Source: Acidobacteriota bacterium (GTDB lineage: Bacteria; Acidobacteriota; Terriglobia; Terriglobales; Acidobacteriaceae). Taken from it: DNA of 36,717 bases. Of this stretch, positions 7,472 through 30,108 are shown piece by piece. A program made the translations under genes and the position numbers. The DNA is taken from contig JAJZDM010000030.1 of assembly GCA_021806005.1 (NCBI GenBank), forward strand, positions 1-36,717, read 5' to 3'. Positions within the stretch are counted from its first letter, which is position 1; the number at the start of each line of letters is the position of its first letter. The notes under the pieces were generated by a model that worked only from the letters and a program-made list of their open reading frames with translations, ran no database searches and was not told the DNA's origin.

Positions 7472-7757
7472 TTATTTCCTATTTTGTCTCTCGTGGGCAA
7501 GCAGGAAAATCCGGATGGCGGAATCTGGATCTTAAGCCGAAGACATGAATTTGCCTCCTTCATCCTCCGCCGAAGCCGGCCTGCCGGCGAGCAGGGTCCT
7601 CCGCCAGAGGGGCAAAGCATGATGCACAGCACTCGATCTGTGGGAGACAGCGGTAGCTGCTGCCGCTGGAATCAAAGTCAGCCGTCGCAACTCTCCGGCA
7701 AAGGAGTAGACGGACCAGCTTGGACGGAGGTCAGCGGTCTTATATGATCGTGGCGCG
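7472..7757. other. Divergent intergenic region with candidate operator
   Basis: This 286-base gap separates the minus-strand kinase operon from the plus-strand hydrolase. It is AT-rich near 7440-7500, contains the one-mismatch operator at 7508-7524 and a GCCGGC-CT-GCCGGC repeat near 7574-7588. I see no small gene with a convincing ribosome-binding site. Confidence 0.4.
7508..7524. promoter_or_regulatory. Candidate ATTCYG-N5-CGGAAT operator, one mismatch
   Basis: The sequence AATCCGGATGGCGGAAT fits the dyad seen at 10510 and 12296 with one mismatch in the left arm and the same five-base spacer. It lies 37 bases upstream of the DUF1537 kinase start, in the leader of operon A. Confidence 0.45.
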
Positions 7758-9086
7758 ATGGCCTTCCCTGTTTCCGACAGTTCCGTTCGGCGTCCCCGTG
7801 CCCGTCTCCGCGCTCACTGGGCTGTTCTGGTCACGGTCTTCTCCGTGTTCGCAGCCTTCCCTGCGCTGGCGCAGGTCTCCCAACGGCAGGTCAAGGCCTG
7901 GCGCTCACAGATCCGCGCGGCGCTCTTTCTTCCCCGGCGGATGCCGTCCCTGGATGCGAAGAGCTACGGCAGCTTTTCGCCAGCGCCCGGGGTGGTGGCT
8001 GACCGGGTGACCTATGTGACCGAGTACGGTCTGCGCGTTCCGGCCATCGTATACCGACCTGCAGAGGCGGAAGGAAGGCTTCCGGGCATGGTGGTGGTCA
8101 ACGGGCACGGGGCGGACAAGACCAGTTGGTACTCCTGGTATACGGGGGTGATGTACGCCCGGGCCGGGGCCGTGGTGCTCACCTACGATCCGATCGGGGA
8201 AGGCGAGCGCAACGATGAGCACCGCGATGGAACCGGGGAGCATGACAAAGTGATCGATGTTGCCGGTGTACCCCAGCGCATGGGCGGAGCGATGGTGATG
8301 GATGTGATGCAGGCTGTCTCTTACCTTGACAGCCGTTCGGATGTGGACCGGCATCACATCGGCGTGCTTGGATTCTCGATGGGCTCCTTTGTGGTCTCGC
8401 TGGCCGGAGCGGTTGATCCCGAAATTCATGCGGTATTTCTCACCGGCGGCGGGGATCTGGACGGCCCGGGGGGGTATTGGGATTCGAGCCGGATGGTGAT
8501 GTGCCAGAGCGGCCCGTACCGCTCCCTGGCGTTTCTTGGTGACCGTCCCGCGGTGATCTTCACCCTGCAGGCGCGGCGCGGGCCAACGTTCATCTGGAAC
8601 GGAACCAGCGACACGGTCGTCGCAATTCCGCAGCACGGCCCCGATTTCTTTGCGGACCTGCGCCGCCGGGTGATCGCGCTGAACGGCTCTGCCAAGAACG
8701 TCTTCACCACCTACTTCGATCCCGGCGCAAGCCATCGCCCTGCCTGGGTGACGCCCCGCGCCGCCGAGTGGCTGGCAGCCAACCTTCACTTCGCGAACTG
8801 GAGTGTGAAGAGCATTCCAGGATTGCCCACGATCCGCATCGGAGCCTGGGCCGCGGAGAACCAGGTACACCTGAACAAGAGCGCGATGCGATTGGACCGC
8901 GATGCCGGCCTGCTGACCGTGAATGTGGGAGTGCCCCGGCTGACACTGGAACAACTCAACGTTCTGCCCCTGGCGGAGTGGGAGAAGCAGAAGGCCGAGT
9001 TTGTCTACAGCTCCTGGGCGCGCGACGCCATCGCCGACGCCAATCGGCACAACGCCGCCGCATCCCTGGCCGCTCCCGCGCATTAA
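7758..9086 (+). CDS. Exported alpha/beta hydrolase (acetyl-xylan-esterase/dienelactone-hydrolase-like)
   Basis: A 442-residue protein with a signal peptide (hydrophobic stretch about 21-38, ALAQ at the end) and one alpha/beta-hydrolase domain. The oxyanion-region VVVNGHG is at 112-118. The nucleophile elbow GFSMG puts the catalytic serine at 207, with a likely acid D285 in NGTSD and histidine H326 in GASHRP. These fit esterases that deacetylate polysaccharides, although other carboxylesterase roles are possible. It stands alone on the plus strand, divergent from operon A and convergent with the propeller gene. In this locus, removal of acetyl or methyl esters from pectic fragments is plausible but inferred. 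The ATG at 7758 has only a weak Shine-Dalgarno. Confidence 0.82.
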   Translation: MAFPVSDSSVRRPRARLRAHWAVLVTVFSVFAAFPALAQVSQRQVKAWRSQIRAALFLPRRMPSLDAKSYGSFSPAPGVVADRVTYVTEYGLRVPAIVYRPAEAEGRLPGMVVVNGHGADKTSWYSWYTGVMYARAGAVVLTYDPIGEGERNDEHRDGTGEHDKVIDVAGVPQRMGGAMVMDVMQAVSYLDSRSDVDRHHIGVLGFSMGSFVVSLAGAVDPEIHAVFLTGGGDLDGPGGYWDSSRMVMCQSGPYRSLAFLGDRPAVIFTLQARRGPTFIWNGTSDTVVAIPQHGPDFFADLRRRVIALNGSAKNVFTTYFDPGASHRPAWVTPRAAEWLAANLHFANWSVKSIPGLPTIRIGAWAAENQVHLNKSAMRLDRDAGLLTVNVGVPRLTLEQLNVLPLAEWEKQKAEFVYSSWARDAIADANRHNAAASLAAPAH

Positions 9087-9096
9087 AGCCCACGTC

Positions 9097-9213
9097 TATG
9101 GCATTTTCGGTGTTGATGCGTATCCCGAAGCGGGCTTGCAGTGGCGTTTTCCTTGAGGGAAAACGCCCATCGACGTCGAGTCGCCCTCTACACCTGCACC
9201 GGAACTGCCTTAG
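9097..9213. repeat. 117-bp dispersed element, copy 1
   Basis: This stretch matches 17107-17223 over 117 bases without gaps and with about a dozen substitutions. It contains a hairpin at 9143-9167: GGCGTTTTCC, a five-base loop, then GGAAAACGCC. Both copies keep a 39-codon open frame, but most differences would change the amino acid, so it looks like a structured DNA/RNA element and not a gene. Confidence 0.85.
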
Positions 9214-9235
9214 CGAAACACGGAGCCAGCGAAGA

Positions 9236-9285
9236 GGCCTCGCGCTCACCCGGGGAAGGATGTTTCCCCTGGGTGGCACGAGGCC
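9236..9285. other. Strong imperfect hairpin between convergent genes
   Basis: Outer arms GGCCTCG and CGAGGCC pair over seven bases; inside them CACCC pairs with GGGTG and GGGGAA with TTCCCC around a GGATGT loop. The region lies between the stops of the hydrolase (+) and the propeller gene (-). There is no T-run, so a classical intrinsic terminator is not evident; it may be a transcript-end structure. Confidence 0.5.
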
Positions 9286-9305
9286 GGGTGCGAGGCTTGA
9301 GCACA

Positions 9306-9345
9306 ATCAGGGAAGAGCGCTCAGGATCAGGGAAGATCACTCAGG
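9306..9345. repeat. 20-bp tandem duplication over a stop codon
   Basis: ATCAGGGAAGAGCGCTCAGG at 9306-9325 is followed directly by ATCAGGGAAGATCACTCAGG at 9326-9345, with two differences. The second unit encodes the last residues and stop of the minus-strand propeller gene; the first is a duplicate just beyond that stop. Confidence 0.8.
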
Positions 9346-10481
9346 GGCATACGCACGAACTTGATGGTCTCGCGACGCCACGAGTAGACCATCAGCAGAT
9401 CGCCGTTGGCTGCCTGGATGATGGCTGGATAGGAGTACTGGCCCGGCCCATCCTCGAGCGTCTTGACGACGGTAAAGTGCTCGCCATCACGGCTGACCGC
9501 AAGGTTGAGCGGGGTGCGCATATCGTAGCTATTGTTGAAGATCAGAACGATGCGGCCGTCGCGCAGACGGACACCATCGATGCCGGAGTTGGGGTTGGGC
9601 AGGTCGATGAAGTGCGCCTGGGTCCAGGTAACTCCAGCGTCCATGGAGTCCGCCACGGCGATGCGGGCCGCTCGCGTGCGGCTGCGGGCATAGAAGCGAA
9701 GATGCCGGCCTCCCATGGAGACGACGGTCGGCTGGATGATGCCCACCGTGGTCTTGGACGGCGGGTAGAGCTTGGTGTGCGGCCCTGCATCGTCCGGTTC
9801 CGAGGGGGTGGGCGGAGCTTTCTGGGCTGCGATGGCCGCTGCCGCGGCCGCCAACGCAGCGGCATTGGGGATATCCAGACTGTCCGGAACCGTAATGGGG
9901 CCAAAGCTGGTCCAGGTGGCGCCATCGTTGGTGGATCTCTCGATCCAGGCTGCCCACTTGCCGTTCTCCACCGAGGAACCGCTGACGATGGTTCCGTCAT
10001 GCAGCACGAGAGGCTTGTCCTTGATGGGGCCCAGAATCCCATTGGGCAGATCTTCCGCGGCGCTCCAGGTGAGCCCCTCATCGCTGCTCCACTTGCGCGC
10101 GCCCTTCCAGTTGCTGGGGTGGGTGCCGTACTTGTAGTAGAGCCAGAGGCGGCCGTCGCGAGTGTGAAAGAGCACCGGGTTCCAGCACGCAACACCCGAG
10201 GCGCGAGCCAGTTCGACAGGCCGGGACCATACGCCCTGGTGCAGATGGGCGCCGTAGATGGCAACATCCGGCGCACCCTCCCGGGTTCCGCCGAACCAGG
10301 CCGCCATCACGTCGCCGCCTTTCAACTCGACGACCGTGGAGGCGTGGTTATCGGGCTGCGTACCAGGGAGCGCATGGCCGCTGGAGACCGGCTGAAAGAT
10401 AAAGCCACTCCCCGTCTGCGCCAGTGCGCCGGTAAGTGCCGCTGCCAGTCCTGCGATCGCTGCCCATCGGGCCATCTTCAT
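9327..10481 (-). CDS. Exported Asp-box (BNR) beta-propeller protein, sialidase-like fold
   Basis: A 384-residue protein with a signal peptide (residues 1-21, ending ALAQ) and three clear Asp boxes: SSDEGLTW near 132, STNDGATW near 183 and SMDAGVTW near 279. These mark a BNR-type six-bladed propeller as in sialidases and exo-acting hydrolases. The FRIP motif and obvious arginine triad of true GH33 sialidases are not evident, so sialic acid is probably not the substrate. An Ala/Pro-rich insert lies at 206-233. A longer frame to 10574 exists, but the ATG at 10481 has AGGAG correctly spaced and begins the signal peptide. A full candidate operator and a TATACT -10 box lie just upstream. A role on an acidic pectin sugar is inference. 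Confidence 0.78.
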   Translation of the reverse strand: MKMARWAAIAGLAAALTGALAQTGSGFIFQPVSSGHALPGTQPDNHASTVVELKGGDVMAAWFGGTREGAPDVAIYGAHLHQGVWSRPVELARASGVACWNPVLFHTRDGRLWLYYKYGTHPSNWKGARKWSSDEGLTWSAAEDLPNGILGPIKDKPLVLHDGTIVSGSSVENGKWAAWIERSTNDGATWTSFGPITVPDSLDIPNAAALAAAAAAIAAQKAPPTPSEPDDAGPHTKLYPPSKTTVGIIQPTVVSMGGRHLRFYARSRTRAARIAVADSMDAGVTWTQAHFIDLPNPNSGIDGVRLRDGRIVLIFNNSYDMRTPLNLAVSRDGEHFTVVKTLEDGPGQYSYPAIIQAANGDLLMVYSWRRETIKFVRMPLSDLP

Positions 10482-10504
10482 CGTTCTCTCCTTGGTGAAG
10501 GGAT

Positions 10505-10526
10505 AGTATATTCCGGCTATCGGAAT
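10505..10526 (-). promoter_or_regulatory. Promoter with perfect ATTCCG-N5-CGGAAT operator
   Basis: The 17-mer ATTCCGGCTATCGGAAT at 10510-10526 is a perfect six-base dyad with a five-base spacer. On the minus strand it runs directly into TATACT (10510-10505), a good -10 box for the propeller gene starting at 10481. The operator therefore fills the -35/-10 spacer, an arrangement typical of repression. Confidence 0.65.
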
Positions 10527-10598
10527 TCTTGCCATTTCTAAGGGCATCGCAACCCGCGGTGCGCAGCGCTTCATGGCTCCCCATGCGCCGCGCCGGAG

Positions 10599-12236
10599 CT
10601 ACTGTCCTCGCCCGGAGGTAGCGAGACTTGCACCCTGCACGGCCGCAGCGGTGCGAATGCGAAGCACGTAGGCCGGTTCGTCCGGCCGGGCCGGGGGCAT
10701 CTGGACGTGCAGACCATCGCTCTGCTGCTTCCAGACGAGATGGGCCGCGGAGCCCAGCATCTCTACGCTGCTGACGGGACCCGGCAGATAGGGCGTTCCC
10801 TGGAAGAGCGATTGCAGGCGCAACTCGCCGTTGGACGGCCAGCCGAGGGCGATCGCGTAGAGGCTGCCGGAGCGCGTGGTGTAACGGATATCAGCGGCAC
10901 TGAACTGCTGGCGGTCCGTGTTCATCGCCGAGGAGGCGTCCAGATGCGGCCCCTCTCCGAAGACAAACCAGGGACGGGAGCCGTAGATGGCCTCTCCGTT
11001 GACGCGCAGCCACGCTCCAATCTGCAGCAGGACGCTCTGCACCGGTTCCGGGATGGTTCCGTCCGCGCGCGGGCCCACGTTGAGCAGCAGGTTGCCGTTC
11101 TTGCTTACGACATCCACCAGTTCGTCGATCAGGGAGCCGGCGTCGCGATACGCATCGTTGGCGACGTAGCCCCAGGAGTGGATGCTCACCGAAGTATCCG
11201 TCTCCCAGGGCAGCAGCCGGGTGGTCTGCATCTTGCCACGCTCGATATCCAGCACCGCGGTATGGGCGGGCATAGCCTGCTCCTTGTAGGTGAGCACGAC
11301 GGGCTGGCCGCGGCGCGCGGCCTGATCGTAGTAGTACGCCGCGAAGCTCTTCAGATAGGGGCGGAAGGCGGGCTGGCCGATCCACCAGTCGAAGTACACG
11401 AAGTCAGGGTGGTATTTTTCAACGAGTTCGCCGCTGCGCGCCAGCCAATCGTCGAGGAAGGCTGTGTTGGGGGGAAGCCACTGCTCCAGATGATTGGGAT
11501 TGGGCTCCTTTTTGCTGACCGAGCCGGGCAGCGCCATGGGCTGAGCGGGGCCGTAGAGCGAGGCGTAACGGAGGCTGCGAACATCGGAGTCAAAGCTCAT
11601 GCCGCCGTCGTACCACCACCAGTGCTCGGCGCGGTGCGAGGAGACCCCGAAGTGCAGGCCGCGGGCGCGCGTGGCGGCGGCAAGCTCGGCGACAACGTCG
11701 CGATGGGGGCCCATCTCTGCAGCGTTCCAGGGACTGATGCTGGAGTGGTACATGGCGAAGCCGTCACAGTGCTCCGCCACGGGAACGATGTAGCGGGCGC
11801 CCGAACGAACGAAGAGGTCCACCCACTCCGCGGGGTTGAACTTCTCCCCGCGGAACATGGGAATGAAGTCCTTGTATCCAAACTTCGACTGCGGACCGTA
11901 GGTGGCAACCTGGTGCTGGAAGGCCGGCGTGCCGGGCTGATACATATTCCGGGAGTACCACTCGTTGCCGAAGGCCGGAACCGAGTAGACGCCCCAGTGG
12001 ATGAAGATGCCGAACTTGGCGTCGCGAAACCACTGCGGCACGCGGTAGGCGCCCAGCGAGTTCCAGTCCGGACGAAAGGGGCCGGCCTGGGTGGCCGCCT
12101 GGACATGTTTCAACTCCCGCTGGACAGCCGGGTTGGACTGGCCGCTAGCGCCCGAAGCACCAACAAGGAAAGAGAGAGAGGCGGCGGAGGTTAAGAGAAA
12201 ACGAAACATGCCGGGGCGTGGAGAATCAGCATCCAT
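10599..12236 (-). CDS. GH29 alpha-L-fucosidase
   Basis: A 545-residue exported hydrolase: a signal peptide (hydrophobic 11-32) and a GH29 TIM-barrel. Diagnostic motifs are KFGIFIHWGVYSVP at 74-87, the HCDGF block at 156-160 and YFDWW at 281-285, where D283 is the expected nucleophile. Retaining GH29 enzymes release L-fucose from glycans, here possibly xyloglucan or rhamnogalacturonan II chains. A small beta-rich C-terminal domain follows the barrel, as in the family. The start at 12236 has AAGG upstream; an ATG at 12209 would give a shorter signal peptide. A perfect candidate operator lies 60 bases upstream (12296-12312), so it probably shares control with the propeller gene. Confidence 0.9.
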   Translation of the reverse strand: MDADSPRPGMFRFLLTSAASLSFLVGASGASGQSNPAVQRELKHVQAATQAGPFRPDWNSLGAYRVPQWFRDAKFGIFIHWGVYSVPAFGNEWYSRNMYQPGTPAFQHQVATYGPQSKFGYKDFIPMFRGEKFNPAEWVDLFVRSGARYIVPVAEHCDGFAMYHSSISPWNAAEMGPHRDVVAELAAATRARGLHFGVSSHRAEHWWWYDGGMSFDSDVRSLRYASLYGPAQPMALPGSVSKKEPNPNHLEQWLPPNTAFLDDWLARSGELVEKYHPDFVYFDWWIGQPAFRPYLKSFAAYYYDQAARRGQPVVLTYKEQAMPAHTAVLDIERGKMQTTRLLPWETDTSVSIHSWGYVANDAYRDAGSLIDELVDVVSKNGNLLLNVGPRADGTIPEPVQSVLLQIGAWLRVNGEAIYGSRPWFVFGEGPHLDASSAMNTDRQQFSAADIRYTTRSGSLYAIALGWPSNGELRLQSLFQGTPYLPGPVSSVEMLGSAAHLVWKQQSDGLHVQMPPARPDEPAYVLRIRTAAAVQGASLATSGRGQ

Positions 12237-12295
12237 GGCAAGACCTTACCAGAGGCAGGGGAAGAGCTGCGGCCCTGTACATCGGCGCGCAGGCA

Positions 12296-12312
12296 ATTCC
12301 GCTGCACGGAAT
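12296..12312. promoter_or_regulatory. Perfect ATTCCG-N5-CGGAAT operator in divergent region
   Basis: ATTCCGCTGCACGGAAT is a perfect dyad with the same spacer length as at 10510. It lies between the divergent GH29 gene (-) and the racemase-homologue/MFS pair (+), so it could control both. The preceding GGC makes a nine-base GGCAATTCC also found at 20555-20563. I do not see a clear TATA box beside it. Confidence 0.55.
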
Positions 12313-12435
12313 GGCGGAAGGATGGATGAAATACCGTTCCGACGGAGCGCCGCACTGCCTATGCTGAAACTGAATCCACTGCGGCTGCACCGGCAGAGCT
12401 CCCATGAGCCAGATGTGCGCAATGAGTGGGAAAGG

Positions 12436-13143
12436 ATGCGCACCTTGCCGATCGATTCCAAACCTACGCTCGCCCTTATCCATACCAGCCCTTCCGTTGT
12501 GCCAGTCTTTACCGGGCTCTGCCAGAAGCATCTTCCGGACGTCAGGATCTTTCACATGGTGGACGAGAGCCTGATCCAGGAGACGATACGCGCCGGAAGG
12601 CTGCGCAGAACGACTGCCCGGCGGGTGGTGGGCCATATCACTTCTGCTGTAGAAGCCGGAGCCGATGCGGTGCTGGTGACCTGTTCTTCCATTGGACAGG
12701 CCACAAGCCTGGCGCAGCAGCTCTTCGATCTGCCCGTCCTGCGCGTGGATGAGGCGATGGCCGAAGCCGCGGTACGCCAGGCCGGGGTGGTTGGGGTAGC
12801 CGCCACGGTGCGCACCACGCTGGACCCCACGCTGGCGCTGCTCCGCGAGAAGGCGCAGGAGGCCGGCCGAGAGGTGAAGCTGATAGAGTGTCTCTGTGAA
12901 GACGCCTTCCCCGCCGTTCTTGCGGGTGACACGGCGAAACACGATGCACTGGTGTCCAAAGCATTGCTCGAAGAGCTTCAAGGAGTGGATCTGATCGTAC
13001 TGGCTCAAGCCTCCATGGCGCGTGTGGTTGAGGGTCTTCCGGCGGGGGCGTTACATGTCCCGGTTCTCACCAGCCCGGAGTTGGCGGTTCTGCGCGCGAG
13101 GCAGGCGCTGCAGTCGCTGGAGCAGGCAGAGGCCGGCGATTGA
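12436..13143 (+). CDS. Asp/Glu racemase-superfamily protein with a single catalytic-type Cys
   Basis: A 235-residue protein of the Asp/Glu/hydantoin racemase superfamily. The N-terminus IHTSPSVVPVF and the first cysteine in VTCSSIG (C83) fit the family. The second catalytic cysteine, normally in an LGCTH-type motif, is absent: the matching place reads LAQASM (189-194). One-cysteine relatives include arylmalonate decarboxylase and other non-racemases, so a true racemase is unlikely. The open frame runs upstream to 12091, but the conserved domain begins here and the upstream part overlaps the GH29 gene; starts at 12361 or 12322 are possible. It is coupled to the MFS gene by a TTGA overlap. Its reaction is unknown. 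Confidence 0.72.
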   Translation: MRTLPIDSKPTLALIHTSPSVVPVFTGLCQKHLPDVRIFHMVDESLIQETIRAGRLRRTTARRVVGHITSAVEAGADAVLVTCSSIGQATSLAQQLFDLPVLRVDEAMAEAAVRQAGVVGVAATVRTTLDPTLALLREKAQEAGREVKLIECLCEDAFPAVLAGDTAKHDALVSKALLEELQGVDLIVLAQASMARVVEGLPAGALHVPVLTSPELAVLRARQALQSLEQAEAGD

Positions 13144-14435
13144 AGCAGCAGCGCGAGCAACAGCGGCACTGGAGGCAGCGGCACTGGGTTCTGACGCTTC
13201 TAGGGCTGCTCTCTGTCCTTACCTTCCTTGACCGTCTTGCGATTGCGGTAGCCGCTCCAGGCATCCAGCGAGAGCTGCACATTGCTCCGCAGGCCTGGGG
13301 TTGGATTCTGAGCGCGTATGTGCTGGCGAACGGATTGTTCGAGATGCCCTCCGGTGCGATGGGCGACCGGAACGGACAGCGCGGCGAGTTGACCCGGATC
13401 GTCACCTGGTGGTCAGGCTTTACCGCGCTGACGGGCTGGTGTCGCGGATTCTGGCAACTGCTAAGCGTACGGTTTCTCTTTGGGATGGGCGCGGCTGGAG
13501 CCTATCCCAACGCCGCCGGGGTGATTGCTCGCTGGTTCCCACCCCGGGAGCGGGCACGCTGCCAGGGCGTGGTGTGGGCGGCGAGCCGGCTGGGTGGCGT
13601 GCTGGCGCCGCTGCTGATTGTGCCGGTGGAGAGGTACTGGGGCTGGCGGGCGGTGTTCAAGCTGCTCGGCACGATGGGCGTGGCGTGGGCAGCGGTGTGG
13701 TACGCACGCTTTCGCAACCATCCCGCGGAGCAGCCGGGGATCCTTGCGGAAGAGCTGGAGGAGATTGGAGCGTTCCAGACACATGGCGCGGGCCCGATTC
13801 CCTGGCGGCGACTACTGGAGTCGCGGCAGCTTTGGCTGCTGGTGCTGGCCTACGGCTGCTATGGGTGCGGGAGCTGGTTCTACTTCTCCTGGTTTCCGGT
13901 GTGGATGGTGCACAGCGCGGGGTTCTCGCTGGACGGCGTGCTGCTGGCCTCCCTGCCCTTTGCCATGGGCGTTGTGGGCAACCTTGCGGGCGGCGAACTG
14001 GGCGACTGGCTGGCGCAGCGTTGGGGCGCCAAAGCAGCGCTGCGCGCGATTCCGGCAGTCTGCCTGATGCTGACCGCAGGGCTGTTATGCGCCATGGCCA
14101 CGATTCACGGCAAGGTGGCGACCGTAGTGCTCTCCAGCCTGGGGTTTGGCATGATGGACCTGATGCTGCCCTCCGCATGGGCGATGTGCATTGCGATTGG
14201 ACGGCAGTGGAGCGGAACGGCCACCGGCATGATGAACACCGCGGGACAGGCCGGTGGGTTTGTGGCCACCGTGGGCTTTGGGTATGTGGTTCATGCTACC
14301 GGCAGCTACAACGCGCCGCTGTTTGTCATCGCCGGAATGGTGGCCATCGCAGCGATCCTCTTCTCTCGCGTGGATGCGACGCAGGGCGTGGAGGAAGAGG
14401 CAGGTTTGCCACCGGCTGAAGCGGCCCGCTGTTGA
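13140..14435 (+). CDS. MFS transporter, anion:cation symporter (hexuronate/glucarate-like)
   Basis: A 431-residue membrane protein with about 12 helices. The DRLAIAVAAPGI segment in helix 1, the GDRNGQR loop between helices 2 and 3, and the FGMGAAGAYPNAAGVIARWFPPRERA segment are typical of the ACS family that carries hexuronates, glucarate and other sugar acids with protons. The start is a TTG overlapping the racemase-homologue stop (TTGA), with AGAGG seven bases upstream; no ATG gives a full first helix. Its genomic partners, a RuBisCO-like protein and acid-sugar kinase on the opposite strand, suggest uptake of a branched or short sugar acid. The substrate is inferred. Confidence 0.86.
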   Translation: MKQQREQQRHWRQRHWVLTLLGLLSVLTFLDRLAIAVAAPGIQRELHIAPQAWGWILSAYVLANGLFEMPSGAMGDRNGQRGELTRIVTWWSGFTALTGWCRGFWQLLSVRFLFGMGAAGAYPNAAGVIARWFPPRERARCQGVVWAASRLGGVLAPLLIVPVERYWGWRAVFKLLGTMGVAWAAVWYARFRNHPAEQPGILAEELEEIGAFQTHGAGPIPWRRLLESRQLWLLVLAYGCYGCGSWFYFSWFPVWMVHSAGFSLDGVLLASLPFAMGVVGNLAGGELGDWLAQRWGAKAALRAIPAVCLMLTAGLLCAMATIHGKVATVVLSSLGFGMMDLMLPSAWAMCIAIGRQWSGTATGMMNTAGQAGGFVATVGFGYVVHATGSYNAPLFVIAGMVAIAAILFSRVDATQGVEEEAGLPPAEAARC

Positions 14436-14487
14436 ATCCACTGGCTGTTGAGCCGGCCCGCTCCATCAAGGCAGATGCGACGGGGCA

Positions 14488-17063: not shown

Positions 17064-17106
17064 GATTCTCCGTTCAGTCTCTTGATCTCCGCCGCAGGGG
17101 TCAGCT

Positions 17107-17223
17107 TATGGCACTTTCGCTGCTGATGGGTACCCCGAAGCGGGCTTGCAGTGGCGTTTTCATTGGAGGAAAACGCCCATCGAAGTCGAGTCGCCCTTTG
17201 CACCTGCACCGAAACTGCCTTAG
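17107..17223. repeat. 117-bp dispersed element, copy 2
   Basis: Gap-free match to 9097-9213 with about a dozen substitutions. The hairpin is kept at 17153-17177: GGCGTTTTC, a seven-base loop, then GAAAACGCC, with the loop diverged. The element's CTTAG end supplies the TAA stop codon of the minus-strand GH127 gene (17222-17220), so insertion may have reset that gene's end. Confidence 0.85.
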
Positions 17224-19169
17224 GCCTGATCAAAGTACATGGTGTAGGTTTCATCCCGCACCTGATAAAAAGGCGCGAAGCTGCGCGATCCCAGCGAGAG
17301 GAGCGCGGGCGAGCCTGCCACCGGCTGCAGCTTGCCGATGTCGAGCGGCATGGAGACGGCGGCCGGGCCGGGTTCGTAGCTGGATTCGTGGCTCGGTGAA
17401 GGGCTGGATGCGAGGCCGGATCCGACACTGCGCTCCACATAGACCAGCGGGCCGCGCAGCACGGCCGCCGTGTGCGGGTGCGCTGCATCGATCGGCTCGC
17501 TGCGCAGGGGCAGAGGCCACTCCAGCTCGACGCGATCGCCGTTCTTCCAGGTGCGGGTGAGCGTGGCGAAGCCGCGGCGCACATCGCTGCTGGCCCACTT
17601 GCCGTTCACCCGAACCTGCGGAGAAGTCTGCACCCAGGATGGAATGCGCAACTGCAGGGTGAAGGCGACCGGGTGCGCACAGGCCAGCATGAGCCGGACG
17701 GCGCCCTGCAGCGGATAAAGCGTCTGCTGCTCCAGCACCACCGCTGTCTCGCCCTGCTGCCAGCGCACCCGCGAGGGGGTGTAGAGGTTTACCGCAACGC
17801 CGCCGGCCGAGCGGAAGTAGACATCCTTCACGTAGTCTGCAACACCCTGCACCAGCGTGCCGGAGCAGCAGGGCCAGCGCTTCGGGTAGAAGCCTTTGCG
17901 GGCTTGAGCGTTGTAGCTGGAGTAGTAGAAGTAGTCACCCTGGCCATCGGGATCTTTGGCAGCGAGAAGACCGTTGTAGGCTACCCGCTCCAGGCCGTCG
18001 CCGTAACGGCCGTCACCGGTGGCGCAGAGCAGGTAGCGCGCCAGCTTGATGGCGGCGTAACTGCCACAAGGAGTCTCAAAGTGATTCTGGGTGGCGGAGA
18101 GGCTGGCGTAGAGCTGTCCTTTGCCGGGTTCGATGAACAGCTCATCCGGTCCCCAGCCGCCGGTGGCGTACTGCTGCTCGCTGCGCAGGAGATCCCAGGC
18201 GTTGCGCATGGTGCCCAGGTACCTCTCTTCGCCCAGCACCAGCCGGGCCTTGCCGGCTGAACTGAGCGCGATGACGTGGCTGTAGGCATGACGCCCAGGC
18301 AGAACATCCATCCCTTGGGCAAGCGGATCAAAGAACTCCCGGTCCAGCAGATAAGCCCTGGCGCGCTCGAGAAGAGTCTGATCCCCGGTGAGTTCATAAG
18401 CCGTAAACAGGTTCTCCGGAAGGACGAAGGTCTCGTCATAGGGGGGATCTTTTCTGCCGATGCGATCGCGGCCACGAGCCGGAATATACGGCAGCGCCCC
18501 AGCGTAGACTCGGGGGATCATCGCTCGTGCCTGCTCCAGGCCGCTGAGGCGCAGGGCATCGATGAGGCCGATGAGATGCTTGTCCAGGATGTAGCAGGGC
18601 CAGAGCTTCTCCGCGTTGGGCGCGGCGAAGACCCGGTTGCTGGCGCCCAGCGTGAGGGCGAAGCCCTCCACCAGCGCCTGCACCTTGGCATGGCACGCCG
18701 GATCGCCCGTGGTGCGGCCGATGCGCGCCAGCCCGGAGATGTACTGGCCGAGAGAGTGTCCGGGGACGAAGCCGTTGCGTCCGTACCACCCGCCCATGGG
18801 AGCGCCGGGATCCGGCAGCCCCGCGCCCTGGCGGTAGACGCGCAGCAGGCGATCGTTCTCCAGAGCGAGATAGGAGGCATGGATGCGGTCGTACTGCTCC
18901 TTGAGGGGTCCGCCGGTGAGTTCGACCGCGCCGAAGTCGAACTCTTCCAACTCCTGCGGGACAGCCGGCGCCGGTGCGTGCTCCAGCGGCGTAGCGACAG
19001 CCAGCGGAACTCCTGCCCCAGAGGCGAGGGCCGCGGCTGCGGCCACGGCCGAGACAAACTCTCTGCGCGTGAGACGCCGGCGCGCGCACTGCGCCGGGCC
19101 GCATGGCTGGTCACCGGGTTCGTTGCCAGGCAGATCTCCCGGCTGGGGTCGCGTTGGGGGGCGATGCAT
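17220..19169 (-). CDS. Tat-exported GH127-type (DUF1680) beta-L-arabinofuranosidase-like hydrolase
   Basis: A 649-residue protein with a twin-arginine signal (RRRLTRREF near 30-38, then an Ala-rich stretch) and a DUF1680 (alpha/alpha)6 barrel plus beta domains. The family uses a zinc-held cysteine nucleophile: the CC pair is seen in WPCCSGT near 434 and the Glu plus Cys in FETPC near 365. The spacing ETPC differs from the ETC of classical GH127, so substrate may differ; a GH127 in the Bacteroides rhamnogalacturonan II system removes aceric acid. An ATG at 19229 overlaps the regulator stop, but the ATG at 19169 has AGGAG and a better signal peptide. A one-mismatch operator lies at 19247-19263. 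Its stop lies in a dispersed repeat. Confidence 0.83.
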   Translation of the reverse strand: MHRPPTRPQPGDLPGNEPGDQPCGPAQCARRRLTRREFVSAVAAAAALASGAGVPLAVATPLEHAPAPAVPQELEEFDFGAVELTGGPLKEQYDRIHASYLALENDRLLRVYRQGAGLPDPGAPMGGWYGRNGFVPGHSLGQYISGLARIGRTTGDPACHAKVQALVEGFALTLGASNRVFAAPNAEKLWPCYILDKHLIGLIDALRLSGLEQARAMIPRVYAGALPYIPARGRDRIGRKDPPYDETFVLPENLFTAYELTGDQTLLERARAYLLDREFFDPLAQGMDVLPGRHAYSHVIALSSAGKARLVLGEERYLGTMRNAWDLLRSEQQYATGGWGPDELFIEPGKGQLYASLSATQNHFETPCGSYAAIKLARYLLCATGDGRYGDGLERVAYNGLLAAKDPDGQGDYFYYSSYNAQARKGFYPKRWPCCSGTLVQGVADYVKDVYFRSAGGVAVNLYTPSRVRWQQGETAVVLEQQTLYPLQGAVRLMLACAHPVAFTLQLRIPSWVQTSPQVRVNGKWASSDVRRGFATLTRTWKNGDRVELEWPLPLRSEPIDAAHPHTAAVLRGPLVYVERSVGSGLASSPSPSHESSYEPGPAAVSMPLDIGKLQPVAGSPALLSLGSRSFAPFYQVRDETYTMYFDQA

Positions 19170-19225
19170 CGGCTGCTCCTGCTCCTGATCCTCAGGGTAG
19201 AGGCGGGAGGATGGTTGGAAAAGCC

Positions 19226-20479
19226 TCATGCATGTGCCCGGCGCTGGTTCCGCGCTGCGGAATCCGATCGTCCCGGTAGCGCAACCCGCCTGAGCGTGGA
19301 CTCGGAGGACTCGTCCAGCGGATAGATCAGGTTGACGTTGCGGGGAGTGAGAAGCTGGTGCTTGACGAAGACGGTGGCGGGAACGGGCTTGTGCTGGAGG
19401 ATGTTGAGGGCCAGCGCGATCAGCTCATCGCCGTACCGCTCCGGGAAGTAGGCTACGGACCCGACCAGCCGCGTGCCCGGCCGGCGCAGCTCGGCGCGCG
19501 CGCCGCGCAGCGCATTCTGGCCCATGATGGCGCAGAGTTGTGCTGCGCCGGCCTCTTCAAAGGCACGGAGCGCGGCCAGCGCGCAGACGTCATTGACCGC
19601 GCCGACCAGAGTCTGGCGCGCGCCGCGGCGGCGCAGAAACTTGCGCAGCACCTCCAGCACCTGCTCAAAGGTGCCGCGGCCGTTGAGGCGGACCAGGGGT
19701 GTGTTGGCGATCTCCGGCAACTCCGCGCGCAGGCCATCCACCAGGCCGGCGCTGCGCAGCTCCAGCAACGAGCCGGCAATGGGCAGATCCAGCAGCACCA
19801 GTTGATCGACGCGGCCATCCCAGTGATCGCGCGCCCAACGGCCCAGCGCCCGGCCACCCATGAGTCCGGCCTTGTAGTTGTCCGCCCCGAAGTAGGTTGC
19901 ACCCGGGTGTGGAACCTCAATGGCAATGACAGGCGTATCGGCGGCGAGAAACTTTGAGGCGATGACCGGGGCGACGCGATCGTAGGTCTGAAACTCGAGG
20001 ACCAGATCCACCTGTTCCCGAATCATGGCGTCGGCGTTGCGCAGCGCCTCGCGTGCGCTGTAGCGGTTGTTGAAGGTGACCAACTGGACGTGCTCGCGGG
20101 CGGCGGCGGTGACCACGCCGCGCGTCACCTCGCGGGCAAACTCGGTATCGCCCTGAGTGGCAAAGCCGATACGAAACGGCCGCGCGGAGACCGGGCCAAA
20201 GCTGTTGCGATACACCCCCGCGCTTACCCGCTCGATGAGGCCGCCGTGAATGAGGGTTCGCAGCAGACGGAAGCTGGTGGTCTTGGGCAGGCGGGTGCGC
20301 TCCATCACCTCGGTCAACGGCAGCTCTTCACCGAGATGCCGAAAGGCCTTGAGCACCTCGCAGGCCCGCAGCACGGTCTGTGACTCGTTGCGGTCCCCGT
20401 TTCGCTCCCCTGTGCGCGCCGCCGGCTCAAGGCAGAGTTCGTCGTTGGGGTCGTATTTGTCTTGTGGATGTTGAGGCAT
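19226..20479 (-). CDS. Hybrid regulator: IclR-type winged HTH fused to periplasmic-binding-protein domain
   Basis: A 417-residue cytoplasmic regulator. Residues 33-92 form an IclR-like winged helix-turn-helix: VLRACEVLKAF, then LTEVMERTRLPKTTSFRLLRTL and the wing GLIERVSAGVYR. From about 102 (FRIGFATQG) to about 370 lies a type I periplasmic-binding (sugar-binding) domain as found in LacI or ribose-binding proteins, with no IclR effector domain. IclR-type HTH with such an effector domain is unusual. Its promoter carries a near-perfect dyad between the -35 and -10 boxes, suggesting autoregulation. It lies amid the hydrolase genes and just upstream of GH127. The ligand is probably a pectic sugar, which is inference. 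The ATG at 20479 has GGGAG upstream. Confidence 0.82.
   Translation of the reverse strand: MPQHPQDKYDPNDELCLEPAARTGERNGDRNESQTVLRACEVLKAFRHLGEELPLTEVMERTRLPKTTSFRLLRTLIHGGLIERVSAGVYRNSFGPVSARPFRIGFATQGDTEFAREVTRGVVTAAAREHVQLVTFNNRYSAREALRNADAMIREQVDLVLEFQTYDRVAPVIASKFLAADTPVIAIEVPHPGATYFGADNYKAGLMGGRALGRWARDHWDGRVDQLVLLDLPIAGSLLELRSAGLVDGLRAELPEIANTPLVRLNGRGTFEQVLEVLRKFLRRRGARQTLVGAVNDVCALAALRAFEEAGAAQLCAIMGQNALRGARAELRRPGTRLVGSVAYFPERYGDELIALALNILQHKPVPATVFVKHQLLTPRNVNLIYPLDESSESTLRRVALPGRSDSAARNQRRAHA
19247..19263. promoter_or_regulatory. Candidate operator inside the regulator's 3' end, one mismatch
   Basis: GTTCCGCGCTGCGGAAT fits the dyad with one left-arm mismatch. It lies in the last codons of the hybrid regulator gene, 78 bases before the preferred GH127 start, so it could control GH127 separately. 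Confidence 0.4.
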
Positions 20480-20531
20480 GGGTACTCCCGCAGATTACGG
20501 AAAGATGAGATCTGTAATTCCGAGGAAACAC

Positions 20532-20563
20532 CATATATTCTGTATTGCGGAATTGGCAATTCC
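20532..20563 (-). promoter_or_regulatory. Regulator promoter with operator dyad and second palindrome
   Basis: On the minus strand a TTGCCA -35 (20559-20554) and a TATATG -10 (20537-20532) are 16 bases apart. ATTCTGTATTGCGGAAT at 20537-20553 fills that spacer; it has one T in place of C in the dyad. A second palindrome GGAATTG-G-CAATTCC at 20549-20563 overlaps the -35. The start codon is at 20479. The layout suggests autorepression. Confidence 0.6.
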
Positions 20564-20595
20564 AAATTTCGGGGCTGCAACTTCTGGCAGCCCCC

Positions 20596-23139
20596 TTACC
20601 GGGTGCGGAGGTCATAGATTCCCGGCGCGTCGAGTGCAATCGCCAGGCGGGCGCCATCCTCCGCCGGTTGGCCGGCGCGCGGTGCGCCGTTCACCAGGAT
20701 CCGCGTGACGCCAGCAGAGACAGGAAAAAGCACGGTGGCATGGACACCGGCGGGCAGTTGAATGGTTGCATGGAGGCCATTCTGACGGCGCAGGTCCACC
20801 TTGAGCAGTCCGTGGGGTGTGGGTTCCTGGCCGCTGGCCCATTGCAGGTCCAGAAGGTCGGGGCGCAGGATGGTGCGGCTGAAGCCGGGGGCTACTGGCT
20901 GGATGCCGAGGACCTGCTCCATGAGCCAGTAGGCGGGCGCCGTGGACCATCCGTGGGCCAGGCTGGCAAAGTAGCCGGTGCGGCCGTCGGCCTGCAGGTC
21001 GGCGTGGGGATCGTCTTTGGGCCAGGAGGGATCGTAGGCCTCCCAGAAGCTGGTGGCTCCCTCTGCAATCATGCCGCCCCAGTACTGGCGAATCCAACCC
21101 AGCGCAGCCTGGCGGTGATTCATGCGGGCCATGGCGTCCAGCACATAGGCTCCGTAGTAGGGGGTGATGAGATTGGGCCGGAAGGTGGGCTGCCCTACCT
21201 GCGCCAGGACGTTGTTCCAGATGGAGTTGAACTGACCGGGATCGGCGACCCCGGAGAGAACCGCCATGGCGTTGGTCTGCCAGCGGGGGCCGAAGTCGCC
21301 TGAGGAAGCTGACCACAGGCTGGACTGCAGGCTCTGCTTCAACTGAGCCGCCCGCGCCTGGAAGTGCTGCGCGTTGGCTGTATCACCGAGCTGACCCAGC
21401 AGGTCAGCGCCGGCCAGATAGGAACGGACGTACTCCAGGCTTGTAGCCTGGCGCGTCTCCGCCGTGTCGCCGTAAAGATCCGGCGCCCAGTCCACGAACT
21501 GCCACGCGCCGGTGCGGTTCAGAAACTCGTCTTGCGCGTCGAACTCCTGGTCCATGAACTGCAGCAACTGCAGGAGCTGAGGGTGAACCTGGCGCAGGTA
21601 CTCAAGATCGCCGGTGTGCTGTATGTACGCCTCCAGCGAAGTCGGCCAGAAGGCGGAGTAGCCGGGGATGCCATTGATGTGCTGCTGAACGGGAGCGGGG
21701 CCGATAAGCCGGGAGAGCGTGTCTTTGAGCAGGAAGCGATCGAAGAAGATGCTGTCACTGACGCGTCCGCTCACGTCAACGTCTCCCATCCAGCGGCCAC
21801 GGTCGCGCTTGGGCGCATCCCAGATGTCGTCCTGCATGCAGAGGTGCACGGTGTAGGCGGCCGTCTCCCAGATGCGGTTCAGCAACGGGTCAGAGGATGC
21901 GAAGGAGCCCTGATAGTCGACGGGGTAGTAGATGTCTTCCAGACGAATGGCCTTGAACTTCAGCTCCGGGCCGCCGGAGAGAAAGCGGATCCGCACGTAG
22001 CGAAAGGCCGACTTGGGTCCGTGTCCAGCCTGGTGCGCCGCCAGGCGCAGCACGTTTTCTCCCAGGTAGGGATCGTGATTCAGTTCTCCCTGAGACTCTC
22101 CGTACTTGATGGAGACCGTGGCGGGTGAGTCCGTATCGGAGACTAGCTGGATGCGGCCGGAGACCTCGCGGCCGAAGTCCAGGGTGAGCGCGGGGGCATA
22201 CTGCTCACCTGGAGCGGTGCTCTTGAGCGCGACGGAGAACTCTTTTTCGGATCTCTGCTCGGTCTGGGTGAGCGCCGGCTGGGTGAGCGCCGGGAGGTTC
22301 GCAAAGCTGCTGCGTCCGGGTGTAACGTCCTCCACCTTGCTGGCAGGAAGATACATCCGGGCAAGAAAGGGCGAGCCTCCCTGATAGCCGGGCCAATCGT
22401 AGAGCCCGGCGTCTGCGTTCCACTGCAACAGATCGATGGAGCCTTCAATGGGGCTGAGCGCGGTAACGGCCGGCCACGCCGCGTCGTCGAAGGATGGTTG
22501 CTCCCAACCTGCGGCGGCGTGCAGCGTACCCTTCCACTGCGGACCGGAGAGCAGTATGGCCGGGGCGTCCACGCCGTCCGGCGCAGGGATCAGCTTGGCC
22601 AGGAGCACCTCTCCGAAGATCTGCTGCATGGCCAGCGGGCTGTTCACAAAGCCGGGAACGCCGCGGCCGCGCACCACTTCCATGGCGAGCACATTGCGTC
22701 CGGGCCGGAGCAGCCTCGCGACATTCACAGGGAAGACGTGCATATCCAGCGGATTGAGAAGGTCGCTGGAGATCTGCTCGGCGAGCACGCCGTTGACGTA
22801 GAGCGTGACCGAACACGGGCCGGCGAGATAGAGCGTGGCCTGCGCCGGCGCCTGATCGAGATGGAACACGACGCGGAAGTAGTGCGGAGCGGTCTTGTGG
22901 TAAAGGCCCGGAGAGCGGTAGTGGATGGGAGCGCTTTTGCCCACGACCGAGTCTTCACGGGTCCAGATGTACTGCTCCGGCAGGGGTGTATGCAGCGCAG
23001 AGAACAACTGTGGCTGGGCGACGGATCGGGTGGGGTCGAGTTGTCCTGCTGGAATCGTCGATTCCCGCTGCTGGGCCGGAAGGCATCCGGCGAAGAGAAG
23101 GCATAGAACCGGCAGACGGCGAAGGAGGTACGGCTGCAT
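20596..23139 (-). CDS. GH78-like alpha-L-rhamnosidase, predicted lipoprotein
   Basis: An 847-residue protein starting with a lipoprotein signal (LLFAGC lipobox near residue 19). A long N-terminal beta-sandwich region precedes the (alpha/alpha)6 barrel of the Bac_rhamnosid_6H type. DIWDAPKRDRGRWMGD near 438 matches the catalytic acidic patch of GH78, and EGATSFWEAYD near 696 the later conserved Glu block. GH78 inverts and releases terminal alpha-L-rhamnose; this DAPKRDR branch is distant from classical DCPHRE enzymes, so the exact sugar is open. The ATG at 23139 is chosen over 23205 for its AGGAG seven bases upstream and the signal peptide. The next gene downstream on the same strand is the hybrid regulator, after 116 bases. 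Confidence 0.85.
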   Translation of the reverse strand: MQPYLLRRLPVLCLLFAGCLPAQQRESTIPAGQLDPTRSVAQPQLFSALHTPLPEQYIWTREDSVVGKSAPIHYRSPGLYHKTAPHYFRVVFHLDQAPAQATLYLAGPCSVTLYVNGVLAEQISSDLLNPLDMHVFPVNVARLLRPGRNVLAMEVVRGRGVPGFVNSPLAMQQIFGEVLLAKLIPAPDGVDAPAILLSGPQWKGTLHAAAGWEQPSFDDAAWPAVTALSPIEGSIDLLQWNADAGLYDWPGYQGGSPFLARMYLPASKVEDVTPGRSSFANLPALTQPALTQTEQRSEKEFSVALKSTAPGEQYAPALTLDFGREVSGRIQLVSDTDSPATVSIKYGESQGELNHDPYLGENVLRLAAHQAGHGPKSAFRYVRIRFLSGGPELKFKAIRLEDIYYPVDYQGSFASSDPLLNRIWETAAYTVHLCMQDDIWDAPKRDRGRWMGDVDVSGRVSDSIFFDRFLLKDTLSRLIGPAPVQQHINGIPGYSAFWPTSLEAYIQHTGDLEYLRQVHPQLLQLLQFMDQEFDAQDEFLNRTGAWQFVDWAPDLYGDTAETRQATSLEYVRSYLAGADLLGQLGDTANAQHFQARAAQLKQSLQSSLWSASSGDFGPRWQTNAMAVLSGVADPGQFNSIWNNVLAQVGQPTFRPNLITPYYGAYVLDAMARMNHRQAALGWIRQYWGGMIAEGATSFWEAYDPSWPKDDPHADLQADGRTGYFASLAHGWSTAPAYWLMEQVLGIQPVAPGFSRTILRPDLLDLQWASGQEPTPHGLLKVDLRRQNGLHATIQLPAGVHATVLFPVSAGVTRILVNGAPRAGQPAEDGARLAIALDAPGIYDLRTR

Positions 23140-23242
23140 AAGAGAACTCCTGCTGCGCAGAGAGAGTGTGTGAGACCGCAAACGGAGCACATACCCGCGT
23201 GGCACTGGCTCTCCAGCGTACCGGGTTCACCGCGGGGCGCGC

Positions 23243-24367
23243 TCAACTCCAGGGCTGCGAGCGGGCGACCGAGATGCCGCGCACATCGTGCGGGTACCTG
23301 CCGGAGACGGCGGTGTAGAAGTGGTAGAAGTCACCCTGCCACGCGATGACCGATGGCTTGTGGGCAAAATCGTCATCCACGGAGCCGGGCGGGCCCGCGT
23401 CGACCAGGATGGTGCCAGTCTTTTGCGGATGATCGGGGGTGTGGCCCATGGCGAGCAGATCGCGCGCCTTGCGGTCGCGGCTGCTCAGGCCGTAGTAGAA
23501 GATCGCCCACTGGTGACGCCAGCGCACGACGCAGGGATCGCTGGCGAAGCGGTCATCCCAGCTTCCCGGGGGTCCGTTGGGGATAATGGGATTCAGCGGA
23601 GAGCGGGTCCAGTGCTTCAGGTCACGTGAGGTCGCCAGCCCGATCTGCTCTCGCCATCCGCCGCCCTCACGTTTGGGCAGGTTGTGTGTCTTCGCGTTGT
23701 AGAAGAGATAGAACGTGCCGTGCTCCTCCACCAGGCACGGCTTGTAGAGCCCTCCCTGCTCCCAGGCGGCTGCCCCCGGATCATCGGGACGCAGGCAGGG
23801 CGGTTCAAGCTCCCAGTGCAGCAGATCGTCGCTCCAGCAAAGTCCGATGACGGCCGGACCAGCCTCCATGCCGGGGTTTGGATAGGCGTGCCATGCACCC
23901 AGGTAACGGCCGTTCACCTTTTTGAGCCGTCCGGGGCTCAGCGCCTCGTTCTCCCGCACGATCCACATCATGGCGATGTTGTAGCGGAAGATCAGCGAGT
24001 TTGGATCACGCCGCAGGATACAGCCCATACGGGTCCAGTCCTGCAGATTGGTGGAGCGCGCCATTCCAGTCTGGTAGCCGGTGCCATCGAAGCCGATGTA
24101 GGTGAGGCGAAACTCATCCTGGTAGCGAAAGACGAAGGGGCAATCCACAAACTTCTCGTCGAAGTCGCCGGCGACGCCGCTGCCGGCCAGCACCAGCCGA
24201 TTGAGCTTGTAGGGCGTCAGCAAGGCATGGGGCGCGGGTGGGCCGGCGTTTACCGCGCCCGGAGAGGCGGCGAGGGCGCTGAGAGCTGCCGCGCTGGCGT
24301 CACTGGATGCCGCGCCGGCGCTGAGGGCTGCCGCGCTGGCGCAGCAGAGAAAGGTGCGTCGATTCAC
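23243..24367 (-). CDS. Tat-exported beta-propeller glycosidase-like protein (GH43/GH130/GH32 superfamily type)
   Basis: A 374-residue protein with a twin-arginine-like signal NRRTFLCCASAAAL at its N-terminus and repeated propeller-blade patterns: DCPFVFRYQDEFRLTYIG, YKPCLVEEHGTFYLFYNA, SDPCVVRWRHQWAIFYYG and HKPSVIAWQGDFYHFYTA. The D/K-P-x-V blade starts with acidic residues resemble five-bladed GH43, GH117 or GH130-like enzymes; I cannot assign one family. The GTG at 24367 is preferred to the GTG at 24427 because it puts the RR signal at the N-terminus. A 42-base in-frame duplication sits in the signal region. A candidate operator lies 229 bases upstream. Secreted action on a plant glycan is inference. 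Confidence 0.72.
   Translation of the reverse strand: MNRRTFLCCASAAALSAGAASSDASAAALSALAASPGAVNAGPPAPHALLTPYKLNRLVLAGSGVAGDFDEKFVDCPFVFRYQDEFRLTYIGFDGTGYQTGMARSTNLQDWTRMGCILRRDPNSLIFRYNIAMMWIVRENEALSPGRLKKVNGRYLGAWHAYPNPGMEAGPAVIGLCWSDDLLHWELEPPCLRPDDPGAAAWEQGGLYKPCLVEEHGTFYLFYNAKTHNLPKREGGGWREQIGLATSRDLKHWTRSPLNPIIPNGPPGSWDDRFASDPCVVRWRHQWAIFYYGLSSRDRKARDLLAMGHTPDHPQKTGTILVDAGPPGSVDDDFAHKPSVIAWQGDFYHFYTAVSGRYPHDVRGISVARSQPWS
24276..24341. repeat. 42-base-period direct duplication in signal-peptide codons
   Basis: A 24-base unit at 24276-24299 recurs at 24318-24341 with one mismatch. The 42-base period equals 14 codons, so the Ala/Ser-rich signal region of the propeller protein is lengthened in frame. 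Confidence 0.7.
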
Positions 24368-24708
24368 GTCTAGTCGTCTCCCGGTCCGTGAGTTCCGCGG
24401 CACAGGCCTCCGTTGCCTGCGCAGCACTGACAGAATAGGCTGTGATCCTCCGCGCGGGTAGCCTGTTCGCCGGTCAGGCTGTGCAACGCAGATCCAGCCG
24501 CCCCGATGTTGGGATGAATCCTGTCAAAACCTTCCTGCATCTCGACCTTCCGCCTGCGCCGGCGCCAGGCCGGCGTTCAATGGGCTGGGGCCCGCAATCC
24601 GATCTGCGGAATGGAACGCTCCCCATCACTGCTCCGCGTGCCCTGCGGTGCTTCTGGCGGGCACGATGCTCTGCCGCGCACGGCTCGTACACTCCTCCGA
24701 AGGCACAC
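24368..24708. other. 341-base gap with candidate operator
   Basis: This gap separates the end of the GH78 gene (24709) from the propeller protein start (24367), both minus strand. It holds the one-mismatch operator at 24596-24612 and GC-rich repeats near 24553-24575. A promoter for the propeller gene is likely here but no clear -10 box is visible. I see no gene with a ribosome-binding site. Confidence 0.4.
24596..24612. promoter_or_regulatory. Candidate ATTCYG-N5-CGGAAT operator, one mismatch
   Basis: AATCCGATCTGCGGAAT has the full right arm, a five-base spacer and one mismatch in the left arm. It lies in the gap upstream of the propeller hydrolase gene and just after the GH78 stop. Confidence 0.45.
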
Positions 24709-27462: not shown

Positions 27463-27545
27463 CTCCGCAGCTCTCCGCGGAAGGTGTAGTCTGGCGCAAA
27501 GGTGCGCTGGGGTGAGGGGCGTCGCTTGCGATCCGGGCCAGAGGT

Positions 27546-28997: not shown

Positions 28998-29025
28998 CTC
29001 TTTCTCCTGAGTGTCTTTCAATTCG

Positions 29026-30106: not shown

Positions 30107-30108
30107 GC

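Follow-up and report, generated by a model that had tools for sequence, protein, structure and literature searches.

What is the function of a short palindrome that recurs across a cluster of sugar genes? The stretch of DNA analysed here, called the window below, is the 36,717-nucleotide contig JAJZDM010000030.1 of an Acidobacteriota bacterium of the family Acidobacteriaceae (assembly GCA_021806005.1). It contains six copies of a 17-bp dyad, ATTCYG-N5-CGGAAT, among genes for glycoside hydrolases (GH), kinases and transporters. The initial annotation of this DNA had taken the dyads for operators of one repressor that controls a kinase operon, a propeller protein, the divergent GH29 and MFS genes, GH127 and the regulator itself. 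We find that this claim is supported as a local regulon, by recurrence of the dyad before several operons above chance and by its conservation upstream of orthologous genes. Very probably the dyad serves the protein encoded at 19226-20479, the regulator, as its operator, and the position of the sites suggests that this regulator would act as a repressor.

Recurrence of the dyad in the window and in the genome

A motif scan of the window found the six dyads at the coordinates given by the initial annotation, each with a five-base spacer. Those at 10510, 12296 and 20537 match ATTCYG-N5-CGGAAT exactly, and those at 7508, 19247 and 24596 have one mismatch. Five of the six are intergenic; the sixth, at 19247, falls close to the 3' end of the regulator gene with its centre 26 bp before the GH127 start. 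As had also been claimed, the dyads at 10510 and 20537 both carry the longer frame TATATTCYG-N5-CGGAATT. When up to two mismatches are allowed, the window contains 16 strand-matches, against a mean of 3.75 (standard deviation 2.5, largest 11) in 100 shuffles. The window was also scored with a held-out matrix, for which 50 sites from the loci of other genomes served as the only training set, with the window excluded. The six dyads take ranks 1 to 6 (18.0-25.3 bits), and the next site reaches 10.4 bits.

A scan of the whole genome, 4.16 Mb spread over 212 contigs, locates 16 places that match ATTCCG-N5-CGGAAT exactly or with one mismatch. Six of them fall in the 36.7-kb window, which is 0.88% of the genome. 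The binomial chance that at least six of 16 places fall there is 3.5e-9, and the pattern read backwards has one genomic place. The genome-wide scan thus reveals clustering in the window, but a genome-wide regulon is unsupported: eight of the ten places beyond the window lie inside called genes (including C128:2811) and two are intergenic, so that the set outside the cluster looks like background. The dyad at C96:14997 is situated between a molybdopterin-binding-type gene and a TonB-C-terminal-type gene. A further dyad at C86:10928-10944 (L090:7929), of the form ATTCTG-N5-CGGAAT, precedes a TonB-dependent-receptor-type gene by about 230 bp and could be the sole plausible target beyond the cluster; the matches to this gene in the 10 relatives compared are only 42-46% identical, too distant to settle orthology.

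One may ask whether such sites simply arise by chance in promoters that are rich in A+T and in palindromes. Other genomes of the host family give some reason for the question: 20 relatives have 5-32 places each (controls 0-6), including three without a close regulator (G064, G236 and G140, with 16, 5 and 9), and these per-genome counts do not discriminate regulator carriers. However, the orthologous loci give a different result. The window and 26 orthologous loci together (448,682 bp, 90% called coding by a simple codon score trained on 23 window genes) contain 61 dyads with at most one mismatch, of which 53 lie at most 300 bp before a called start and only five lie deep in genes, probably by chance. 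In this sequence, 179 permuted half-sites give a mean of 0.9 matches and a maximum of 7, and no other spacer length from 0 to 13 gives more than 4. Since 41 of the 61 dyads are outside called genes, the dyad is not evenly spread in coding DNA, which was the density check proposed in the initial annotation. Shuffles, permuted half-sites, other spacers and clustering together refute a chance origin of the six dyads as a set, and we regard chance as an extremely improbable explanation of the sites.

Any 6+6 dyad can also form a hairpin, and the sites might be RNA hairpins, terminators or a dispersed repeat rather than protein sites. In the 50 sites, the half-site letters are fixed (0.84-0.99 at twelve positions) whereas the spacer varies freely. 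This favours a protein site over a hairpin, because in a hairpin the paired letters could change together. In addition, the dyads sit between promoter elements, the window has no Rfam match, and terminator-like sites are not in excess. A role in RNA is therefore very unlikely.

Conservation upstream of orthologous genes

Group A comprises the 26 loci that encode a regulator at least 67% identical to that of the window; with the window added, 27 loci are compared. In 20 of these 27, a dyad with at most one mismatch lies within 300 bp upstream of the regulator, as opposed to 0 of 17 loci of a subfamily with 44-52% identity. The seven misses include L053, for which only 57 bp of upstream sequence are present. 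In the regulator upstream regions, spacers of 0-4 and 6-11 give no match, a spacer of 12 gives one, and 179 permuted half-sites give at most one. Of all 4096 half-sites, ATTCCG ranks highest in group A plus the window (20/27); it does so too in a separately fetched set of 14 loci with 55-67% identity (5/14), and ATTTCG is on top in the 44-52% group (10/17). With a leave-one-out matrix, 24 of 26 regulator promoters reach at least 8 bits, compared with 32 of 743 background windows; the conservation that the initial annotation required upstream of orthologues is thus present.

Dyads of at least 8 bits are also found upstream of the homologues of other proposed targets: counted with the window, these are BNR_2 (4/5), GH29 (4/5), the GH43-like gene (4/5) and the N-terminal half of the transketolase (3/3). 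For GH127, a dyad lies upstream in 12 other loci, of the 18 group A loci with a GH127 homologue. The corresponding matrix count is 6/14 at 8 bits or more; some gene starts in the orthologous loci are estimates from alignments, and several of them miss dyads that are found before GH127. Among racemase homologues with a readable start, 7 of 13 carry a dyad (at most two mismatches) within 450 bp. The window's split-transketolase operon is preceded by a weak, unproven candidate dyad, whose score is to be read against the same background of 32 of 743 windows; the homologous transketolase gene carries a strong dyad upstream in L055 and L056. The isomerase gene is preceded by a weak site too, at 29026, which shows no conservation in L051, L052, L056 or L058 and was set aside as chance.

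Promoter context and mode of action

The initial annotation had placed the dyads at 10510 and 20537 in the spacer between the -35 and -10 elements. This fits well at 20537 (TTGCCA ... TATGGT), but at 10510 only the -10 element (TATACT) is clear and the -35 element is poor. A plain sigma-70 consensus scan of 7300-24800 finds promoter-like sites no more often than shuffles do (3 vs 2.2), and hence the promoter reading rests on conservation. The regulator promoters of the orthologous loci commonly have the arrangement TTGCCA-[dyad]-wTA. Of 22 promoters, 14 have an element of the TTGC or TTGTCA type directly against the dyad, and 17 have a TA at most 5 nt behind the dyad. A dimer bound there would occupy the interval from the -35 to the -10 element.

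The mechanism that we propose is as follows. A dimer would contact each ATTCCG half-site with one of its winged helices; the centres of the two half-sites are 11 bp apart, or about one helical turn. The ligand-free regulator would occupy the dyad, at its own promoter between -35 and -10, and would exclude RNA polymerase. The genes repressed in this way would be the regulator itself, GH127 with the OiaX/OiaK-like genes behind it, BNR_2, GH29, the divergent racemase-MFS pair, the GH43/32-like gene and the kinase genes from 7471. The repressor would be released when its sensor binds a sugar that stems from the breakdown of plant glycan; D-apiose, or a compound formed from it, is the most plausible candidate.

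The same protein could instead bind the dyad and activate, or either activate or repress depending on position. Some IclR-type regulators are activators, and two sites lie far upstream, namely that at 24596 (177 bp) and that at 7508 (242 bp from the esterase gene). The close fit of the dyad between the -35-like element and the TA in most regulator promoters, however, agrees best with blocking, and we consider activation rather unlikely.

Four loci that are related to one another (L072, L073, L074 and L075) have two dyads 76-84 bp apart upstream of the regulator. These pairs adjoin a divergent gene, which is of the FG-GAP-repeat type in the two that were scanned (L073 and L075), and are compatible with a repression loop.

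The regulator protein

Judged by its domain matches, the regulator is an unusual hybrid of an IclR-type winged helix and a sugar-binding-type sensor, a feature that the initial annotation had not named. It matches HTH_IclR with 46.2 bits (Pfam cut-off 22), followed by Peripla_BP_4, and thus combines the winged helix of the IclR family with the periplasmic-binding-type sensor of the LacI/GalR family. Both domains occur in all 20 relatives chosen for scanning, with Peripla_BP_1 in 8 and Peripla_BP_3 in 6. With nine families matched at E 0.001, the IclR C-terminal effector domain was found in 0 of these 20 members, as was the LacI-type helix-turn-helix. Neither the regulator nor any of the 20 matched the GntR winged helix that marks a chimera of the AraR type. 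An AlphaFold2 model of the regulator has a predicted local distance difference test score (pLDDT) of 68.4 and a predicted template modelling score of 0.46, the winged helix being better than the whole. The Foldseek matches of this model (pLDDT 68) are ribose-, glucose- and galactose-binding proteins and LacI-family proteins.

Relatives at E 1e-60 or better are present in 184 of 398 genomes of the host family, and matches of about 36-41% identity are listed for many genomes of this family. A wider scan of named genomes found 141 relatives, using peptides conserved in close relatives, so that distant relatives elsewhere could be missed. The best 80 of the 141, which were examined, are all Acidobacteriota by title or belong to groups that we take to be placed there.

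The genome also encodes a paralogue 37% identical to the regulator (G000 C203:37568-38602; L020, L093). It adjoins a gene for an aldolase-II/short-chain-dehydrogenase fusion and an FGGY kinase gene, neighbours that presumably point to L-rhamnose catabolism.

This paralogue or the SorC-type regulator at 33751-34851, both encoded in the genome, might own the dyad, in which case the hybrid regulator would be only a target. The paralogue has a KTT-type helix and a loosely similar upstream dyad, GATCCGCAATGCGGGAT, with three mismatches, and a SorC homologue lies within the transketolase cluster of L122. On the other hand, none of the 26 group A loci has a SorC homologue, and the paralogue subfamily has no common dyad in 21 upstream regions. 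The dyad instead accompanies the hybrid regulator in different genera, with a half-site that varies from one subfamily of the hybrid to another; ownership by another regulator is improbable.

Recognition helix and operator class

For 99 regulators, including that of the window, the best upstream site was classed as RTTCYG (C-type) or RTTTYG (T-type), and 77 could be classed. At residue 68, T occurs with 35 C-type and 5 T-type sites and M with 0 and 34, respectively. At residue 74, R, Q or K occurs with 32 C-type sites and 1 T-type site, and Y with 0 and 33. The association is one deep split and not many independent events. Because the two branches share one 17-bp layout of their commonest upstream dyad, we read the pairing of helix and operator as tying the dyad to this regulator family.

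A broader proposal, which we consider possible and offer only tentatively, is that Acidobacteriota have a sugar-repressor family of their own, built of an IclR winged helix and a periplasmic-binding-type sensor, that would read the 17-bp dyad by a two-letter code. Helices with KTT or RTT and mostly R, Q or K at residue 74 would go with RTTCYG, and helices with K(T/S/G)M and Y74 with RTTTYG; the RTTCYG branch would co-ordinate both D-apiose routes with polysaccharide-opening enzymes.

Gene company and the probable ligand

Two routes are known for D-apiose, one through an isomerase, a kinase and a split transketolase and the other through OiaK and the RuBisCO-like OiaX. An OiaX homologue is present in 16 of the 26 group A loci and in 0 of 14 loci of 44-52% identity. 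Among separately fetched loci it is present in 2 of 3 new close ones, in 4 of 13 of the 55-67% group, and in 0 of 4 and 0 of 38 more distant ones; these fractions are not strictly comparable, as the locus stretches were up to 20 kb in the first sets and up to 13 kb in the others. The 13 loci of the 55-67% group also include two more with a split transketolase beside the regulator and one with an isomerase. A split-transketolase gene stands beside the regulator in L055, L056, L099, L122 and L123. Since the two apiose-type routes are the most constant company of the regulator, D-apiose or a product thereof is the most likely inducer, an assignment that falls just short of an even chance. A RuBisCO-like protein is part of the apiose route and apiose is present in rhamnogalacturonan-II (PMC6302742).

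Evidence against the proposed regulon

Several observations tell against the reading of the dyad as the operator of an apiose-responsive repressor. Few dyads are found before OiaX (2 of 17 loci), OiaK (0/13), MFS (0/14), GH78b (1/7), GH78a (3/12) and the isomerase (1/5), so that control of these downstream genes depends on read-through; this scarcity is as expected if OiaX, OiaK, MFS, GH78 and the isomerase are mostly inner operon genes. Nor do all close orthologues have an intact dyad: it is missing in L067 and degraded in L068 and L071, three loci without OiaX nearby, and L069 has OiaX yet no good dyad before the regulator. Bryocella elongata (L112) has the locus, and its regulator gene is preceded by no good dyad. 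O6 is 177 bp away from its gene, and the 21 upstream regions of the 37% paralogue subfamily share no dyad.

As to the helix, a tree of the sensor part shows only about two changes of operator class, and a test of independent pairs has only two pairs and no power. In these pairs residue 74 is mostly the same (1.4 of 2), and M68 changes in the same direction in 1.2 and shows no difference in 0.8. As to the ligand, the OiaX and OiaK homologues are below the equivalog cut-offs. The RuBisCO-like protein scores 434.4 bits against OiaX (3-oxo-isoapionate-4-phosphate decarboxylase) and the kinase 457.9 bits against OiaK (3-oxo-isoapionate kinase), the cut-off being 700 in both cases. In a scan of the isomerase, the kinase and the C-terminal half of the transketolase (the N-terminal half was outside that scan), no NCBIfam model naming apiose enzymes matched.

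Features of the locus

The dyads and the main genes are listed in Table 1. The RuBisCO-like (OiaX-type) and OiaK-type kinase genes lie behind GH127 in the same direction. The minus-strand run that starts with the kinase gene at 7471 also includes PdxA-like, SSF symporter, HpcH/HpaI-aldolase-type and iron-dependent alcohol dehydrogenase (Fe-ADH) genes. The gene for the SorC-type sugar regulator (33751-34851) adjoins the split-transketolase operon, as a SorC homologue accompanies the transketolase cluster of L122 (Paludibaculum), and two regulators may share control of the split-transketolase genes.

A 117-bp intergenic repeat occurs in two copies, 90% identical, at 9097-9213 and 17107-17223. 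In the genome, at least 40 matches are 88-100% identical, 40 of the 98 candidates having been scored. The repeat has a strong RNA fold (z -3.6) with paired ends and no Rfam match; it is a dispersed element resembling repetitive extragenic palindromes (REP) or miniature inverted-repeat transposable elements (MITE).

Table 1. Dyads and genes of the window, with the match of each dyad to ATTCYG-N5-CGGAAT and its score under the held-out matrix
Feature	Position	Strand	Match	Context or best model	Score in bits (rank)
O1	7508..7524		one mismatch	about 45 bp before kinase gene start 7471 (-); about 242 bp before esterase gene 7758 (+)	21.6 (3)
O2	10510..10526		exact	37 bp before BNR_2 gene; abuts TATACT	25.3 (1)
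O3	12296..12312		exact	between GH29 (-) and racemase-MFS genes (+)	19.8 (4)
O4	19247..19263		one mismatch	in 3' end of regulator gene; 26 bp before GH127 start	18.0
O5	20537..20553		exact	66 bp before regulator start; between TTGCCA and TATGGT, minus strand	25.0 (2)
O6	24596..24612		one mismatch	177 bp before GH43/32-like gene	18.0
Weak candidate dyad	33685..33701			before split-transketolase operon; unproven	10.4
PdxA-like gene	5334..6344	-		head of minus-strand gene run	
SBD_N/NBD_C kinase gene	6341..7471	-		head of minus-strand gene run	
BNR_2 propeller gene	9327..10481	-			
GH29 alpha-L-fucosidase-type gene	10599..12236	-			
Asp/Glu-racemase-like and MFS transporter genes	12361..14435	+			
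SBD_N/NBD_C kinase gene	14488..15954	-		best NCBIfam model OiaK, below cut-off; true start may be near 15780	
RuBisCO-like protein gene	15777..17063	-		best NCBIfam model OiaX, below cut-off	
GH127-type gene	17220..19229	-			
Regulator gene	19226..20479	-		HTH_IclR + Peripla_BP_4	
GH78-like gene	20596..23205	-			
GH43/32-like gene	23243..24427	-			
GH78, isomerase (Fucose_iso_C), ureide-permease-like transporter, FGGY kinase and two split-transketolase half genes	24709..33556	-			

Comparison with known systems and significance

Repressors that act through a palindromic operator on their own gene and on neighbouring sugar genes are well known. One close parallel is AraR of Bacillus subtilis, likewise a two-part repressor, in which a winged helix from one family is joined to a sensor of the GalR/LacI type. 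AraR has no fewer than eight palindromic operators, including one ahead of its own gene and others ahead of polysaccharide and sugar genes; some promoters have paired boxes, which loop (PMC4218819). The placement of the operators described here is similar, and the paired dyads of L072-L075 recall those boxes. AraR differs in its GntR DNA-binding part and in its operator, At(T/A)tGTaCGTAcaa(A/T)T, in place of an IclR part and ATTCCG-N5-CGGAAT (PMC4218819); its target genes and its phylum also differ. The regulator resembles the IclR family in its winged helix but has a Peripla_BP_4 sensor and no matched IclR effector domain, and it resembles the LacI/GalR family in its periplasmic-binding-type sugar sensor but has no matched LacI helix-turn-helix.

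D-apiose catabolic gene clusters were reportedly described by Carter et al. in 2018. Such clusters are similar in that a RuBisCO-like protein, an SBD_N/NBD_C kinase, an isomerase, an FGGY kinase and a split transketolase are gathered in one locus. They differ in that here both gene sets occur together and among glycoside hydrolases, with OiaX and OiaK homologues that fall below cut-offs and with a function that is predicted. Literature searches did not find the domain fusion, the operator or the pairing of operator and helix, which is weak evidence because the queries were narrow and most subscription journals were outside their coverage.

For this cluster of plant-polysaccharide genes in Acidobacteriota, the dyad provides a testable operator together with a candidate regulator, and it allows the genes that would respond to the sensed sugar to be delimited. 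The paired variants of helix and operator are a ready set for the study of base choice by IclR winged helices. If the ligand is D-apiose, the regulator and its dyads would constitute a dedicated apiose switch.

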